A stretch of 29,951 nt of DNA from a virus. Of the stretch, positions 11,376 through 18,362 are shown in pieces. A program made the position numbers and the translations under genes. Where the stretch lies: IMG/VR virus record IMGVR_UViG_3300042673_001607, positions 1 through 29,951 of that record; one strand, given 5' to 3'. Within the stretch, counting starts at the first letter, position 1; every line of letters begins with the position of its first letter. Under the pieces are notes generated by a model. That model did not search any database. It was not told where the DNA came from and worked only from the letters and a program-made list of their open reading frames with translations.

Positions 11376-12521
11376 ATGAACGCACGAGCCGCAACTGTGA
11401 TCAAGCCTTTGAATCCCAAAGGTGCTGAAACCAAATATGTTGGGCACGAGCCTGACTGGAAATTCCAACCCACAGAAGAAAATCGCATCAGTGCATTCAG
11501 CAAGGCCTTTGCCTGGTACAACTATCACTATGGCAAAAAAGATGCCAAGGACATGCTGTGTCAGTACCTGGACATCAATCATCGAAGCAAAGACGCCAAG
11601 CTCATGCGTGGTATCCCTGACAGCCAGATTCGTTTGACTCCAGCCTGGGTGTGCAGGATGACCTTGATGGGCCTGACGCTCAATGAGCATGAACAGTGTA
11701 TCATTGACGAGCAGATCGCCACAATGCTAAAAATCAAACAAGAAATAAAAAAGATCATTGACGAAAACGAAGTGGCTGTAGCAAAACTCACAATACAAGA
11801 TCATCTGCGTGAGAAAGTGAGTGAATGTGCTGGCGAGCTGGAAGGCATGTTTGATGATTTCATCCGGGACGGTGCCAAGATGAGCGCAGACTGGAAACCC
11901 ATTGCACAGATCCGTGGCATGAACATCAGTCCCAACATGGTGGGCACCATTGCCGATGTGTGGAAGATCAAGTTGGCCGAGTTTGAAGAAGTATTAGCCG
12001 GTGAGGATGCTGATCTCGTAGAAGGCTACAGCCACCTTAACAAAAATCAAATCAAGCAGTGCATCAAATTCATTGAGCAAGTCATAGCTGACTGTGGAAA
12101 CTATGTACAGATCAAAAAAGTGGAACGCAAGCCCAGAGCCAAGAAATCTGTCAGCCCAGAAAAACTCGCATCCAAATTTAAGTACATGAAAGACTTTGCC
12201 GAGCTCAAGCTCACAAGCGTTGCACCAGCCCAATTGGTCAATGCCAGCGAAGCCTGGTTGTACGACACCAAGAAACGCAAGTTGATCCATGTGATGAGTG
12301 ACAGTCACCTGGGTTCGTTCAGCGTCAAAGGATCAGCTATTGTGGGCTTTGATACCATGCAAACTGTACAAAAAACTCTACGCAAGCCCGCAGAACAGCT
12401 CAAAGAGCTACTAAGTGGGGGCAAACCTGCGGCTCGTAAAGTGTTCAAAGACATCAAGGCCACAGAAACCAAGTACAACGGGCGTGGCAACGAGAATCTA
12501 ATCATACTGAAAGCCTGGTAA
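11376..12521 (+). CDS. Conserved T4-like phage protein of unknown function, early-type promoter (381 aa)
   Basis: A soluble, charged protein. The N-terminal half is mostly helical (AFAWYNYHYGKKDAKDMLCQ, then a Lys/Glu-rich helix ~100-160). A Lys/Arg-rich linker (KKVERKPRAKKSVSPEK, ~248-264) leads to a C-terminal domain containing SEAWLYDTKKRKLIHVMSD and VKGSAIVGFDTMQ. I recall similar hypothetical proteins in cyanophage-type T4-like genomes, but no function. The basic linker could bind nucleic acid. Expression from a strong sigma70 promoter with a good AGGAG suggests an early, non-virion role, although gp13 follows directly. Confidence 0.75.
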   Translation: MNARAATVIKPLNPKGAETKYVGHEPDWKFQPTEENRISAFSKAFAWYNYHYGKKDAKDMLCQYLDINHRSKDAKLMRGIPDSQIRLTPAWVCRMTLMGLTLNEHEQCIIDEQIATMLKIKQEIKKIIDENEVAVAKLTIQDHLREKVSECAGELEGMFDDFIRDGAKMSADWKPIAQIRGMNISPNMVGTIADVWKIKLAEFEEVLAGEDADLVEGYSHLNKNQIKQCIKFIEQVIADCGNYVQIKKVERKPRAKKSVSPEKLASKFKYMKDFAELKLTSVAPAQLVNASEAWLYDTKKRKLIHVMSDSHLGSFSVKGSAIVGFDTMQTVQKTLRKPAEQLKELLSGGKPAARKVFKDIKATETKYNGRGNENLIILKAW

Positions 12522-12526: not shown

Positions 12527-12543
12527 GGGAACACGGAGTTCCC
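12527..12543 (+). promoter_or_regulatory. Hairpin abutting the gp13 start codon
   Basis: GGGAAC (12527-12532), loop ACGGA, GTTCCC (12538-12543) is a perfect 6-bp stem ending at the base before ATG 12544. The ribosome site GGAG (12535-12538) lies at the loop and the first stem base. Long transcripts would fold here; a late transcript would lack most of the left arm. Confidence 0.7.
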
Positions 12544-13311
12544 ATGGCACAAGCAGAATCGACACTACAAACCCTCAAACAAACGCTGATTGATTATGTC
12601 CAGTTACAACTGGGCAGTCAGATCGTTGACATTGAACTAGATGACGAACACTACGAAGCAGCCTACCAAAAAACCATAGGAACCTATCGCCAGCGGGCAC
12701 AAAATGCCTATGAAGAAAGCTATACTTTCATGGAGTTGGTCAGAGACGTAAACATCTATACCTTGCCGCAGGAAGTGATCACGGTACGCCAGATCTTTCG
12801 CAGGACCTTTGGTGACAGCACAGGACCATTTGCGTCAAACTTTGATCCGTTTAGCCAGGCCAGTATGAATGTGTATCTCATGAACTTCAACGTGGCCGGT
12901 GGCCTCGCCACTTATGATTTTTATGCAGGCTATGTGGAATTGGCAGCCAGAATGTTTGGTGGCTACATGAACTACACCTGGAACCCAGTCACAAAGAAAC
13001 TGCAACTGATCCGTGACCCCAAGGGCACCGGAGAGAATGTGTTGTTATGGTGTTACAATCTCAAACCCGAAGTAAATCTCCTACAGGATTTCCAAATCAG
13101 TCAATGGATACGTGACTACATGGTGGCCAATTGCAAGTACATCATTGGCGAAGCAAGAGAGAAGTTTGGTACCATAGCTGGTCCACAAGGTGGCGGCACA
13201 CTCAATGGGTCGGCCATGAAAGCCGAAGCTCAGGTCCAGATGGATGCTCAAATTGAACAACTCAAAAACTACATCGACGGCAGCCAGCCCATCACTTTTG
13301 TAATCGGTTAA
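12544..13311 (+). CDS. 13: Neck protein, T4 gp13-like
   Basis: gp13 with gp14 completes the head before tail joining. 255 aa. The N-terminal helical region (TLKQTLIDYVQLQLGSQIVD) is followed by a beta part with YTLPQEVITVRQIF (~72-85). The C-terminal signature AREKFGTIAGPQGGGTLNG (~203-221), then MKAEAQVQMD, is typical of gp13 in T4-like phages. It is slightly shorter than T4 gp13 (309). It follows the early-type 381-aa gene by 22 nt and has its own late box and a start-site hairpin, which suggests late-only translation. Confidence 0.78.
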   Translation: MAQAESTLQTLKQTLIDYVQLQLGSQIVDIELDDEHYEAAYQKTIGTYRQRAQNAYEESYTFMELVRDVNIYTLPQEVITVRQIFRRTFGDSTGPFASNFDPFSQASMNVYLMNFNVAGGLATYDFYAGYVELAARMFGGYMNYTWNPVTKKLQLIRDPKGTGENVLLWCYNLKPEVNLLQDFQISQWIRDYMVANCKYIIGEAREKFGTIAGPQGGGTLNGSAMKAEAQVQMDAQIEQLKNYIDGSQPITFVIG

Positions 13312-13352: not shown

Positions 13353-13874
13353 ATGAGCTCACTGATGATCGACATAGAAGGCCTGGCCACTGGTCCGGAT
13401 GCCACCATACTGACCATAGCCGCACAGAGCTTTGATCCGTTTGGCACCGGCTACTATGACCGTTGCTACTATGCCAGAATCACTTTGGAAAGCCAAGAAA
13501 ATCGTGCCATTGAAGAAGGTACCTTGCAGTGGTGGTCAACTCAGAAAGAAGCACAGACAGAAGCCTTCATGGAAGAAGGGCGTGTGCCGTTGGACCAAGC
13601 CCTGGACAGCCTTTACAAATTGGCCTGGCAACACAAGTTTATATTCGCAAACGGGCCCACGTATGACATGAACATCTTGGAACACGCCTACAAGAGTTAC
13701 GGCAAACCTTTGCCCTGGCAATTTTACAATGTGCGTGATGCCAGAACCATCTACAGTTTATGGCCCGAGCTACCACGTCCTGCTACCAGTCATCATGCCC
13801 TTGAAGACTGCCGTAGACAGATTGACATGTTGCAGGCCACTCTTAGACACCTAAACGTAAAGGAAATAAGATGA
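13353..13874 (+). CDS. dexA: DnaQ-fold 3'-5' exonuclease, T4 DexA-like
   Basis: A DEDDh exonuclease of the DexA/Rv2179c-like group. Exo I is MIDIEGL (D7, E9). GTLQWWSTQ (56-64) matches the T4 DexA STIEWWKNQ region. Exo II includes D105 in GPTYDMNIL and Exo III is HHALED (H147, D152), so all catalytic acids are present. T4 DexA degrades single-stranded DNA in the cytoplasm; related enzymes act on RNA. At 173 aa it is shorter than T4 DexA (227). It overlaps gp1 by ATGA. The start has no Shine-Dalgarno and may be leaderless. Confidence 0.85.
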   Translation: MSSLMIDIEGLATGPDATILTIAAQSFDPFGTGYYDRCYYARITLESQENRAIEEGTLQWWSTQKEAQTEAFMEEGRVPLDQALDSLYKLAWQHKFIFANGPTYDMNILEHAYKSYGKPLPWQFYNVRDARTIYSLWPELPRPATSHHALEDCRRQIDMLQATLRHLNVKEIR

Positions 13875-14530
13875 TCATTGGGGTATGCGGCTTGATCGGT
13901 GCAGGCAAAGACACCATAGCAGACTATCTAGTAAACATACATCAATTTCGCAGAGAAAGTTTTGCCAACACACTCAAAGACGCTGTGAGTGCAGTGTTTG
14001 GTTGGGATCGTGAACTGCTGGAAGGGCGTACCAAACACAGTCGAGCCTGGCGTGAGCAAGTGGACCCATGGTGGGCGGCCCGCTTGAACATGCCCGATTT
14101 GACTCCAAGATGGGTGTTGCAATACTGGGGAACTGAAGTAGTGCGTAGAGGGTTCCATGATGATACCTGGATTGCCAGCCTGGAAAACAAACTGCGCAAG
14201 ACCACAGACGATGTGGTCATTTCAGACTGCCGTTTCCCCAACGAAATTGCCGCTATCAAGCGTGCTGGCGGTGTTGTGGTACGTGTGCATCGTGGCCCTG
14301 ATCCTGAGTGGTATTGCCTAGCAGAAACAGTGAATTCTGGCCCACAAAACATGGCCTGGACCACCAGCAAGATTGAGCTAGAAAAATATGCCATACATGC
14401 CAGCGAAACTGCCTGGATTGGCACTGAATTTGATGCTGTGGTAGACAACAATGCTACCATGGACCATCTTTACACACAGGTCAACGATCTGGTTCGAGAT
14501 CTCCAGGCCGCCATGGCAAATCACTCTTAG
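13871..14530 (+). CDS. 1: Deoxynucleoside monophosphate kinase, T4 gp1-like
   Basis: Phosphorylates dNMPs to dNDPs for phage DNA synthesis. The P-loop GLIGAGKDT is at residues 7-15, followed by ADYL. RRESFANTLKDAV (~28-40) and VLQYWGTEVVRRGF (~82-95) correspond to the LAGPIKDAL and LMQALGTDLI regions of T4 gp1. VVISDCRFPNEIAAIKRAGG (~116-135) matches the DTRQDHEMDAARAMGA region. At 219 aa it is near the family size. It is translationally coupled to DexA (ATGA), so the two form a nucleotide-metabolism pair on an early-type promoter inside the structural region. Confidence 0.88.
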   Translation: MIIGVCGLIGAGKDTIADYLVNIHQFRRESFANTLKDAVSAVFGWDRELLEGRTKHSRAWREQVDPWWAARLNMPDLTPRWVLQYWGTEVVRRGFHDDTWIASLENKLRKTTDDVVISDCRFPNEIAAIKRAGGVVVRVHRGPDPEWYCLAETVNSGPQNMAWTTSKIELEKYAIHASETAWIGTEFDAVVDNNATMDHLYTQVNDLVRDLQAAMANHS

Positions 14531-14825
14531 CAATCTCTATCACGCAGTTTTGACACACAGTTTTTAAATTGCGTAGTGTATTGTTGTTAAGATTGCCGTC
14601 CATGTGATAAACCAAGAGTTGTACAGAATATTTTGCACGAAAGCCACAGCGATCGCAGACGACTTTTTTCTTGTAACCTGCTGTTTTCCACCTAGGATCA
14701 ACTGGCTTGAGTCTGCGGCCGCGCCTGATACAGTGCTCACACAAACGTCGATACTGTATGCGGTCAGCACGGTGATAAGCCACAGCTCTAAATCGTTGAT
14801 TGCAGGCCATGCACATGGGTCTCAT
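14481..14825 (-). CDS. Zinc-ribbon / HNH-like protein (114 aa)
   Basis: Started at ATG 14825 (MRPMCMACNQRF), 5 nt after a TAAATA box. A first zinc pair set CMAC...CEHC lies at ~5-8 and ~33-36, and a second CDRC...CQNC at ~57-60 and ~89-92. The second encloses YHMDGNLNNNTLRNLKTVC, which resembles the H-x-DGN-x2-NN-x4-NL core of HNH nucleases, but the usual final His after the last CxxC is missing. It could be a small DNA-binding protein or a degenerate endonuclease. Its 3' end overlaps the gp1 gene by 50 nt, convergent. Confidence 0.75.
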   Translation of the reverse strand: MRPMCMACNQRFRAVAYHRADRIQYRRLCEHCIRRGRRLKPVDPRWKTAGYKKKVVCDRCGFRAKYSVQLLVYHMDGNLNNNTLRNLKTVCQNCVIEIAKSDLPWRPGDLEPDR

Positions 14826-14830
14826 AGGTA

Positions 14831-14837
14831 TATTTAC
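14831..14837 (-). promoter_or_regulatory. Late-type box GTAAATA (minus strand)
   Basis: Read on the minus strand, GTAAATA is followed by TACCT and the ATG at 14825. There is no Shine-Dalgarno. Confidence 0.5.
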
Positions 14838-14843
14838 CCTTAA

Positions 14844-14858
14844 CCCTACTGGGTAGGG
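14844..14858. other. Intergenic hairpin between divergent genes
   Basis: CCCTAC (14844-14849), loop TGG, GTAGGG (14853-14858). It lies between the divergent zinc-ribbon gene and gp18. No T run follows directly, so it is not a clear terminator. It could insulate gp18 from read-through. Confidence 0.4.
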
Positions 14859-14880
14859 GAGCAATCACGGCTTGTTTTTG

Positions 14881-14914
14881 CCTTTTTCCATAAATATCTT
14901 TAACTAGAAAAAGG
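14881..14914 (+). promoter_or_regulatory. Inverted repeat masking the gp18 ribosome site, with the late box in the loop
   Basis: CCTTTTTC (14881-14888) pairs perfectly with GAAAAAGG (14907-14914). The right arm covers the Shine-Dalgarno AAGGA (14911-14915). The 18-nt loop contains the late box ATAAATA (14890-14896), so a transcript begun there (~14902) lacks the left arm and leaves the site open. Confidence 0.7.
14890..14896 (+). promoter_or_regulatory. Late-type promoter box ATAAATA for gp18
   Basis: ATAAATA, 25 nt before ATG 14922, with AAGGA between them. This is the expected T4 late promoter arrangement for the sheath gene. Confidence 0.75.
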
Positions 14915-14921
14915 AATTACC

Positions 14922-17900
14922 ATGGCACTAATATCACCCGGCGTAGAAGTCACAATCATTGACGAAAGTCAGTATATCCCTTCCGCTACCAATTCGGTAC
15001 CTTATATTTTACTGGCCACGGCACAAAACAAAGTCAGCGGCGCCGGAGTTGGCGTGGCTGCTGGTACTCTTGCTGCCGAAGCCAACAAAGTCAAGCTCAT
15101 GTCCAGCCAGCGGGATCTATTGGCCACATATGGCAATCCCTTCTTTTACAAGACCACTGCTGGTACACCTATCAACGGTTACGAACTCAACGAATATGGT
15201 TTGTTGGCTGCTTTCAGTGCCCTGGGTGTATCCAATCGTTGTTATGTACAACGTGTGGACATTGACCTGGCCGAACTTACCGCTACCCTGGTCCGCCCAA
15301 CTGGAAATCCTGACAATGGAACATACTGGTTAGATACTGCCAACACGGCCTGGGGAATTTTTGAATGGAATTTGGTCACTGGTGCTTTTGCAAACAAGAT
15401 TCCATTGGTAATCACTGATGACAATGATTTAGAACCAGCCAGCACAGTACCATTGCAAAGCATTGGCAGCATAGGCGACTATGCAGTTGTGGCTACCAGC
15501 ACCCAGAATCCCATTTACTACAAGCGTGGAGGTCCTATATACCCCACACAAACCAGCGATGTGACCTTGGGCGATTTGTATAATACCTGGGTATTGGTTG
15601 GTAGCGATGACTGGAAAACAGCTTGGCCCACAGTGCAAGGCACTCTGGCACCCACCACCTTGACAGCAGGCGACACTGTCAGGATCAATGATAATCCTGT
15701 GGCTGTTCCTATTGCTCCAAACAACACCGTTGATGGACTCAGCGATGCCATCAACTCAGATGGTATACCTGGAGTGTATTCTGCAGTGATCGGTGGCAAG
15801 TTGCAAATTTATGCTGACAGCACAGCCAGCAATGATGGCAGTACCGCAGGCGAAGGTCTCGTATCACTTGAAAACGGCATTGGAAATCCATTGGCTGCTT
15901 TGGGCATTGCTCCAAGCGAATACGTAGCCACAGATTATCTAGCTCAATACAGCTATAATGCTCCACGTTGGGGCTCTACACAGACCAGTCCACGTCCCAC
16001 TGGATCAGTGTGGCAGAAGATCAACAATGTGAATTTGGGGACCAATCTTGTGGTGAAAAGATTCAACAGCACACTTGGCACCTTTGTTCAACAAGGCTGC
16101 CCGGTTTATTTCAATGATGCCTATGCAAATTATGGACTAGATCCTTCGGGCGGCGGCAGTGGCATCCCAGCCGGGACAACCTATGCCGAGGTAGATGTTT
16201 TGGCCAACAGTACCGGCAGTTTTACTATCTATGAAAAATTTGCTTCGGGTCCTACCATAATCACTGGAGCCGACAGCACGCCTGGTCCGTTTACAGTCGG
16301 CAACACATTTACCATTGCGGCTTCACAAGCTGGAGTGCAACCAACCTCACAGGTTACATTTTCCACACCAGTCACTGCAACCATTGGTGGCACAGGTACA
16401 GCCGTAGATTTTGTCTCTGCAGTGAGTGCGGCTGCAGTGCCCAATGTCAGTGCTGCCATTGCCAGTGACGGTTCTATAATAATTGAACATAGCCAGGGCG
16501 GCAGCATCCAATTGATCAATACCATTGGCAGTCCTGTTACTACGGCTGGATTTACTACCGCAGTTCGTGGAGTAAGAGTCAACTACGTCAATGGTGGTGC
16601 TTCTGGAGTAGTATTGAGTAATTGGGTCGGAACTCCAACATTTACCTATATTGCCAGCAACACCGCACCGGACCAAGATCCAGCCGACGGACGTTTATGG
16701 TATTACAGTGCAGCCACCACAGGCAGTGCAGATATCATGATTCAGGATGATGGTATTTGGCAAGGTTATCAAAACGTCACCAATGATGTACGCGGAGACG
16801 ACCTCAGCAATACCAATGCCACTGGACCAATTTTTAGTACCACGCCTCCATTGACACAGACTGACCAAAGTCAAAGTGCGTTGGTCTATGGTGATCTTTG
16901 GATCAACACCGGAGATTTGGAAAATTATCCAGTGATCAGTCGCTGGAGCAATGTGGATGGAACAGATCAATGGCTGTTGATTGACAACACTGATCAAACC
17001 ACACAAAACGGAATCTTGTTTACAGATGCACGCTGGGCTCCCAATGGTACAACCAATCCCATCAGTGATCCTATCCCAACTATAGTGAGCTTGTTGACCA
17101 GTAACTATCTGGATCTTGATGCACCCGATCCTAGCCTGTATCCACAAGGAACCTTGTTGTGGAACACACGCCGTAGTGGATTCAATGTCAAGGCATTCCA
17201 GGTAAACTACTTTAACTCCAGTGATTTTGCAGTAGACGCTTATGACACCACCACTGCATACGGTTTCAACGATTTTGTAAACTACAATGGTGTGATCTAT
17301 GTGGCCAAACAAAGCACGACCGGTAATGTACCAACTAATACCACGTACTGGGCAGCAATAGAAACCAATGCTTGGGTTTCACAAAATCCAGTCAAGGCCG
17401 ACGGTAGCCCATACATGGGTCGCCAGGCACAACGTGTACAGATTGTCCAGGCTCTTAGAGCCGGTATTGATACCAGTACCACTGCAAGAGAAGAGCAATT
17501 GGTTTATAACTTGATCAGTTGTCCACAGTACCCGGAATTGTTGCCCAACATGGTGGCACTCAACAACGAACGCAACAACACAGCATTTGTTGTGGCAGAC
17601 ACACCGTTGCGCCTGAGCCCAGAAGATATTTTGACTTGGTCCAGCAACAACAATGGACTGGGACTCAGCACAGGCGACGGATTCCTGACACGTGATGTAT
17701 ATGCTGGCGTGTTTTATCCAAGTTGCCAGACCACTGATACCACTGGTTCTCTAGTGGTACAACCACCCAGCCATATGATGATCAGAACAATCATCCGCAA
17801 CGACGAAGTGGCATTTCCATGGTTGGCACCAGCAGGAACACGCCGTGGAGTGGTAGACAATGCCATACAAATTGGTTACATCAATGCTGCCACTGGTGAA

Positions 17901-18362
17901 TTTGAAAGCCTGGGAGTTCGTCAAGGCCTACGTGATACCTTGTATGAAAACAGTATCAATCCTATCACTTTCATACCAGGAGTGGGTATCACCAATTTTG
18001 GTAACAAGACCACTACCACACTGACCAGTGCCTTGGATCGTATCAACGTGGCACGTTTGATAGCATTCATACGTGGTCGTTTGGAAACCATTGGCAAACA
18101 GTTTTTGTTTGAGCCCAATGATCAGATCACACGCAATGAAATTAGAAATGTTATTGATAGCTTGATGATTGATCTGGTGGCCAAGCGCGGCATCTACGAC
18201 TACCTGGTGATTTGTGATCTTACCAACAACACACCAGCACGTATCGATCGCAATGAACTATATGTGGATATTGCTATTGAACCAGTCAAGGCTGTAGAGT
18301 TTATCTACATACCGGTTCGTATCAAGAACACAGGAGAAATTGCTGCAGGTGCAGCGGTCTAA
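14922..18362 (+). CDS. 18: Tail sheath protein, T4 gp18-like, enlarged (1146 aa)
   Basis: The contractile sheath subunit. The N-terminus ALISPGVEVTIIDESQYIPS is the typical sheath start. The C-terminal part holds the conserved sheath domain: FIRGRLETIGKQFLFEPND (~1048-1066), RNEIRNVIDSLM, then the AIEPVKAVEFIYIPVRI strand that threads between subunits. It is far longer than T4 gp18 (659); the excess lies in the middle (~150-850). That part has Trp/Tyr-rich beta segments (GRLWYYSAATTGSADIMIQD, YGDLWINTGD) and a CBM5/12-like stretch at ~773-814. It is monocistronic, from a late promoter to a terminator. Confidence 0.92.
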   Translation: MALISPGVEVTIIDESQYIPSATNSVPYILLATAQNKVSGAGVGVAAGTLAAEANKVKLMSSQRDLLATYGNPFFYKTTAGTPINGYELNEYGLLAAFSALGVSNRCYVQRVDIDLAELTATLVRPTGNPDNGTYWLDTANTAWGIFEWNLVTGAFANKIPLVITDDNDLEPASTVPLQSIGSIGDYAVVATSTQNPIYYKRGGPIYPTQTSDVTLGDLYNTWVLVGSDDWKTAWPTVQGTLAPTTLTAGDTVRINDNPVAVPIAPNNTVDGLSDAINSDGIPGVYSAVIGGKLQIYADSTASNDGSTAGEGLVSLENGIGNPLAALGIAPSEYVATDYLAQYSYNAPRWGSTQTSPRPTGSVWQKINNVNLGTNLVVKRFNSTLGTFVQQGCPVYFNDAYANYGLDPSGGGSGIPAGTTYAEVDVLANSTGSFTIYEKFASGPTIITGADSTPGPFTVGNTFTIAASQAGVQPTSQVTFSTPVTATIGGTGTAVDFVSAVSAAAVPNVSAAIASDGSIIIEHSQGGSIQLINTIGSPVTTAGFTTAVRGVRVNYVNGGASGVVLSNWVGTPTFTYIASNTAPDQDPADGRLWYYSAATTGSADIMIQDDGIWQGYQNVTNDVRGDDLSNTNATGPIFSTTPPLTQTDQSQSALVYGDLWINTGDLENYPVISRWSNVDGTDQWLLIDNTDQTTQNGILFTDARWAPNGTTNPISDPIPTIVSLLTSNYLDLDAPDPSLYPQGTLLWNTRRSGFNVKAFQVNYFNSSDFAVDAYDTTTAYGFNDFVNYNGVIYVAKQSTTGNVPTNTTYWAAIETNAWVSQNPVKADGSPYMGRQAQRVQIVQALRAGIDTSTTAREEQLVYNLISCPQYPELLPNMVALNNERNNTAFVVADTPLRLSPEDILTWSSNNNGLGLSTGDGFLTRDVYAGVFYPSCQTTDTTGSLVVQPPSHMMIRTIIRNDEVAFPWLAPAGTRRGVVDNAIQIGYINAATGEFESLGVRQGLRDTLYENSINPITFIPGVGITNFGNKTTTTLTSALDRINVARLIAFIRGRLETIGKQFLFEPNDQITRNEIRNVIDSLMIDLVAKRGIYDYLVICDLTNNTPARIDRNELYVDIAIEPVKAVEFIYIPVRIKNTGEIAAGAAV

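Follow-up and report, generated by a model that had tools for sequence, protein, structure and literature searches.

A hairpin around the late promoter of a phage tail sheath gene: a probable translational gate with counterparts in distant jumbo phages

In the window (the whole stretch of T4-like phage DNA analysed here, an IMG/VR contig spanning 29,951 bases), a tail sheath gene lies downstream of genes whose RNA may run into it, which raises the question of whether its leader distinguishes RNA arriving from upstream from RNA started at the gene's own late promoter. The gp18-like gene (14922..18362, + strand; 1146 aa; Pfam PF17482, phrog_10581) is preceded on the same strand by two perfectly complementary 8-bp arms, CCTTTTTC (5' arm, 14881..14888) and GAAAAAGG (3' arm, 14907..14914), spaced by 18 nt. 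The late-promoter box ATAAATA (14890..14896) occupies the loop between them, and the 3' arm holds the AAGG of the ribosome site, a Shine-Dalgarno sequence AAGGA (14911..14915) recognised from the sequence and from predicted opening energies, ahead of the sheath ATG at 14922. This is the anatomy that the initial annotation had described, with an 8-bp repeat enclosing the box and one arm over the gp18 ribosome site. ATAAATA occurs eight times in the window, seven of them on the + strand, against 2.8 expected in all, a count matched by 1 of 100 shuffles of the window, and the sites at 14890, 18414 and 21511, at least, lie 18–25 nt ahead of a gene's ATG; given this excess and spacing, it is reasonable to take the box for a late promoter. 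Transcription from T4 late promoters starts about 6 nt after the box, which would place the late start at 14902 on the + strand.

Hairpins of this kind gate the T4 genes e, soc, 49 and I-TevI; at e, soc and 49 the late promoter is found in the loop or in the 5' arm, the ribosome site lies in the 3' arm, and the late RNA lacks the 5' arm (PMC3014915). The sheath hairpin shares the placement of the late promoter (ATAAATA, between the arms), the ribosome site within the 3' arm (GAAAAAGG overlaps AAGGA) and a late RNA that would lack the 5' arm, but differs in belonging to a tail sheath gene, in its unrelated arm sequences and in its weaker helix (8 bp, −5.3 kcal/mol alone). Hairpins at the homing-endonuclease genes I-TevI and segB of T4 and mobE of Aeh1 likewise hide the ribosome site and leave it free in late RNA (PMC2988022); those hairpins gate mobile endonuclease genes, whereas here a structural gene would be gated, and the HNH-like gene next to it runs on the opposite strand and has a late box to itself. 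A search of open-access papers turned up no description of such a hairpin at a sheath gene. In every feature visible in the sequence, the sheath hairpin appears to resemble that of gene e, and it may be counted as a further example of the e/soc/49 device, with moderate confidence for this phage and more firmly for the jumbo phages described below whose arms are 10 bp long.

We consider it probable that the hairpin is a translational gate of the gene-e kind. An RNA started upstream would carry CCTTTTTC, which would pair with GAAAAAGG, burying the ribosome site and keeping sheath translation low, while an RNA from the late box, starting at about 14902, would lack the 5' arm; with its ribosome site open, such RNA, driven by the gene's own promoter, would be the source of sheath protein. 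The same silencing would extend to late RNA that starts further upstream. Sheath protein can polymerise alone, as in T4 polysheath, and a likely purpose of the gate would be to avoid premature sheath protein. In this scheme, we infer where late RNA starts, that read-through RNA exists, that it is early and how strongly translation is affected.

Read-through RNA would presumably come from 13353..14530, which holds two genes on the + strand, one dexA-like (exonuclease, 13353-13874) and one gp1-like (dNMP kinase, 13871-14530). On the opposite strand, between gp1 and the sheath gene, sits an HNH-like gene (14481..14825; phrog_2255 HNH endonuclease), divergent from the sheath gene, with a TAAATA late box (14825-14836, − strand) a few nucleotides before its ATG; judging by this arrangement, RNA running from gp1 into the sheath gene would have to cross the HNH-like gene in antisense. 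Gene order around the sheath gene is mostly kept among relatives. In 47 of 50 relatives the TAAATA of the HNH-like gene lies only 4–5 nt before its ATG, so that late transcription would begin at the start codon or within it and give a leaderless RNA. Further upstream, the head-tail adaptor gene (12544-13311, + strand) has its own late box at 12519 and a late leader (12527-12543, + strand) that forms a small hairpin with the ribosome site in the loop (GGGAAC acgga GTTCCC). The stem of this leader varies on both sides among relatives (TAGGGAC/GTCCCTA, ATAGGAAC/GTTCCTAT, GGGGC/GCCCC, TTGCTAC/GTGGCAA), and 12 of 25 distinct adaptor leaders fell at p ≤ 0.05; it is possibly an RNA that binds a protein or presents the site for translation.

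Since the hairpin sits at a junction of transcription units and read-through would be undesirable there, it might instead be a transcription terminator or an RNA-processing site that parts the upstream RNA from the sheath unit. We find this very improbable: the 3' arm is followed by AATTACC and no T run, terminator calling yielded none on the + strand from gp1 to the sheath gene, and in relatives and distant phages alike it is the ribosome site that becomes closed. Comparison with Rfam gave no match in 14400-15000 at E ≤ 1. A repeat can also form where the ribosome sites of divergent late genes face each other, as at 113360/113411 in the T4-like phage AR1; this artefact was rejected here, where 56 nt separate the left arm from the start of the divergent gene, and for Munch-type phages, in which the upstream genes share the strand of the sheath gene.

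Folding of 14870-14940, a check that the initial annotation had proposed, gave the arm helix as the minimum-energy structure (−10.4 kcal/mol), though 12 of 200 shuffles of the segment folded equally well (z −1.75); shuffling the upstream part only gave p = 0.12. On its own sequence alone, the hairpin of this phage is suggestive and not beyond chance, and significance comes only from relatives. The predicted energy for opening the ribosome site was 3.6–5.1 kcal/mol in RNAs with 5' ends at 14601-14841 and 0.8–1.4 kcal/mol in RNAs starting at 14900-14904, which agrees with the earlier expectation of a site closed in RNA from upstream and open in late RNA, as in a gene-e-type hairpin. The shuffling results speak for a repeat that is incidental here, an A-rich ribosome site facing a T-rich stretch kept for some other reason, with no regulatory role in this phage even if other phages use such hairpins. 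We regard this explanation as possible, if unlikely, and the comparison with relatives bears on it from both sides.

By scanning IMG/VR with the sheath protein, we obtained 80 loci with sheaths 52–100% identical; nearly all have TAAATA and a ribosome site ahead of the sheath ATG, and they vary in sequence upstream of the box. Opening energies were compared between a 'long' RNA that includes upstream DNA and a 'late' RNA whose 5' end was set 5 nt past the box, near the predicted late start. Sheath leaders of 39 non-redundant relatives gave 4.00 kcal/mol (long), 1.07 kcal/mol (late) and 2.63 kcal/mol (long, upstream shuffled), an excess over simple shuffles of 1.37 ± 0.29, and 11 of the 39 reached p ≤ 0.05 individually. 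At 44 further late promoters from these loci the corresponding values were 1.80, 1.36 and 2.39, with an excess of −0.59 ± 0.14 and 0/44 at p ≤ 0.05. That the sheath excess survives dinucleotide shuffling of the upstream DNA (+1.67 ± 0.35, 39 relatives) and is absent at these other promoters argues against an incidental repeat. Reversed upstream segments still exceeded dinucleotide shuffles by 0.63 ± 0.20, so part, not all, of the signal in the clade reflects T-rich composition, as an incidental repeat would have it. Little or no closure beyond shuffles was seen in at least six relatives (L034, L036, L037, L065, L074 and L077), and genome-wide ranking in two large relative contigs (G001, G002) did not mark the sheath gene as an outlier. 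When the upstream segment of one relative was joined to the leader of another, native combinations beat swapped ones (duplex energy z −4.3; opening energy z 2.4–2.9); reversed segments also beat swaps, and this result is therefore not counted as proof of covariation.

The arms themselves tell a similarly mixed story. The right arm, being the ribosome site, hardly varies among close relatives, and their left-arm changes are mostly one-sided, with no matching change on the right; a conserved T tract before the late box, moreover, persists where pairing is gone, and both observations favour an incidental repeat. Between subclades, both arms differ and still match: CTTTTTCTA/TAGAAAAAG in L009, TCTTTTTTCAAT/ATTGAAAAAAGG in L024, CTTTCCG/CGGAAGG in L049 and GCAATCCTT/AAGGATTGT in L072, the left arm shifting by 10 nt or more. 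In L024, L049 and L072, a different ribosome site is met by a different matching arm, which speaks against coincidence. The co-variation of the arms anticipated by the initial annotation is thus borne out only in a loose sense, the arms being exchanged and displaced between subclades without pair-by-pair change, and several relatives lack a strong helix; the arms evolve by swapping one matching arm for another.

More distant phages point in the same direction as the gene-e-type gate. Over the aligned parts, the sheaths of Atu_ph07, Phosso and PA5oct are 42–45% identical to that of this phage. The sheath genes of K64-1, Munch and SNUABM_47 are preceded by AATCCTCCAA-TAAATA...TTGGAGGATT, with 10-bp arms of unrelated sequence, and that of GAP32 by arms of the same type (AATCCTCCAA/TTGGAGGATT) with one G-U pair; Atu_ph07 has the 10-bp arms ATATAACCCC...GGGGTTATAT, and PA5oct and Phosso have 8–9 bp arms that adjoin or partly cover the ribosome site. 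No such arms were seen at the sheath genes of SCTP-2 and Vibrio 2.275.O. An annotated dNMP kinase or kinase lies directly upstream of the sheath gene in K64-1, Munch, GAP32 and SNUABM_47.

These distant cases also bear on the view that the stretch ahead of the box is maintained at the DNA level, serving late transcription of the sheath gene as an upstream promoter element, with pairing as a by-product. A palindrome, CCTACTGGGTAGG (14845..14857), putatively the site of a dimeric protein, lies outside the hairpin, 33 nt before the sheath late box, and about 60 relatives (L002-L081) carry a CCT...AGG palindrome in the same place (CCTACTGGGTAGG, CCTTTGCAAAGG, CCTTAATTAAGG, CCTATATATAGG and others). 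Its distance to TAAATA is 32–34 nt, nearly always 33, with a conserved T tract between them 11–12 nt before the late box, and the spacing of palindrome, T tract and box is fixed down to about 58% sheath identity; each long contig has the palindrome once, bar one chance-like extra match. A DNA element of this sort accounts for these regularities but cannot explain the box-adjacent match to the ribosome site in Munch, K64-1 and Atu_ph07, which lack the palindrome, and we hold it improbable as the reason for the pairing. The inner bases of the palindrome vary yet remain self-complementary right to the centre, a pattern that points to DNA bound by a dimeric protein more than to an RNA hairpin, and the palindrome could regulate both divergent late promoters, those of the sheath and HNH-like genes.

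Returning to the translational gate, we applied the opening-energy comparison to further sets of sheath genes in IMG/VR. Against dinucleotide shuffles, the excess was +1.73 ± 0.36 in the PA5oct-like set and +2.70 ± 0.84 in the Munch-like set, and no excess appeared in the T-even (−0.13 ± 0.14) or cyanophage (0.01 ± 0.37) sets; the T-even sheath genes are without the device. With simple shuffles, the PA5oct-like set gave +1.61 ± 0.37 at sheath genes and +0.63 ± 0.30 at other late promoters, the latter fitting use beyond the sheath gene. Some cyanophage sheath genes (L178, L185, L316-L395) carry a variant in which the 5' arm, TCCTAGA, directly follows the late box and pairs with TCTAGGA, which overlies the ribosome site; in this position the late start itself would cut the 5' arm. 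Shuffling the 10 nt after the box lowers closure by 1.61 ± 0.37. We considered a rule by which the device accompanies an upstream gp1 (early) and is missing where gp17 (late) is upstream. Counts at p ≤ 0.05 agree with it (T-evens 0/35 vs 30/102 in the other jumbo-type sets), but the groups are different clades and the cyanophages, with gp17 upstream, have the variant, so the rule is only suggestive and was set aside.

We finally surveyed five jumbo genomes (Atu_ph07 up to 396 kb, sheath region included) for stems that cover the ribosome site and enclose a late box; genes without a late box served as controls, and since no enclosed box was required of them, the comparison is conservative. Stems of at least 9 bp were found at 25 of 273 late-box genes, against 23 of the 1339 genes that lack the box (p = 1.5e-8), and those of at least 8 bp at 35/273 and 56/1339, respectively (p = 3.4e-7); PA5oct taken alone showed no enrichment. 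Gene e is the textbook case of the device, and in AR1, scanned as a T4-like control with genes e and 49 recognised by their N-terminal sequences, the longest stem was that of the lysozyme gene e, and gene 49 gave 9.8 kcal/mol for the long and 1.1 kcal/mol for the late RNA. The method therefore finds the known device, and in jumbo phages the sheath gene falls into that class. The resemblance to T4 gene e that the initial annotation proposed accordingly holds in this control as well as in the published descriptions (PMC3014915).

K64-1 has a stem at each of its neck, sheath and tube genes, and the neck-gene arms differ between phages (GCACCCCTAT/ATAGGGGTGC in Munch, ATAGCACCTC/GAGGTGCTAT in K64-1, CCCCTAAATATG/CATGTTTAGGGG in GAP32). 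We lean towards a reading in which late promoters nested in ribosome-site-hiding hairpins form a genome-wide timing layer in jumbo T4-like phages, affecting roughly a tenth of late-box genes and recurring at the neck-sheath-tube cluster that is interleaved with an early-type dNMP kinase gene, the arms being continually remade and conserved by function, not sequence. The suggestion that the device is a general one gained support from the recurrence of this anatomy, with arms of unrelated sequence, in several distant jumbo phages at the sheath gene and from the genome-wide enrichment. Recurrence at sheaths 42–45% identical, together with the jumbo-wide enrichment, suggests a shared means of silencing structural genes that lie downstream of other transcription units, and the device appears to be in wider use than the two reviews record, which name a handful of T4 genes (PMC3014915, PMC2988022). 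GAP32, K64-1, PA5oct and Atu_ph07 are cultured phages in which the prediction is open to testing. Separately, one gene of 177–186 aa (Munch 239064, GAP32 235913, K64-1 139430) has perfect arms of 12–14 bp around its late box, for example AACTCCAAGGTT/AACCTTGGAGTT, which are among the longest stems in each of the three genomes.
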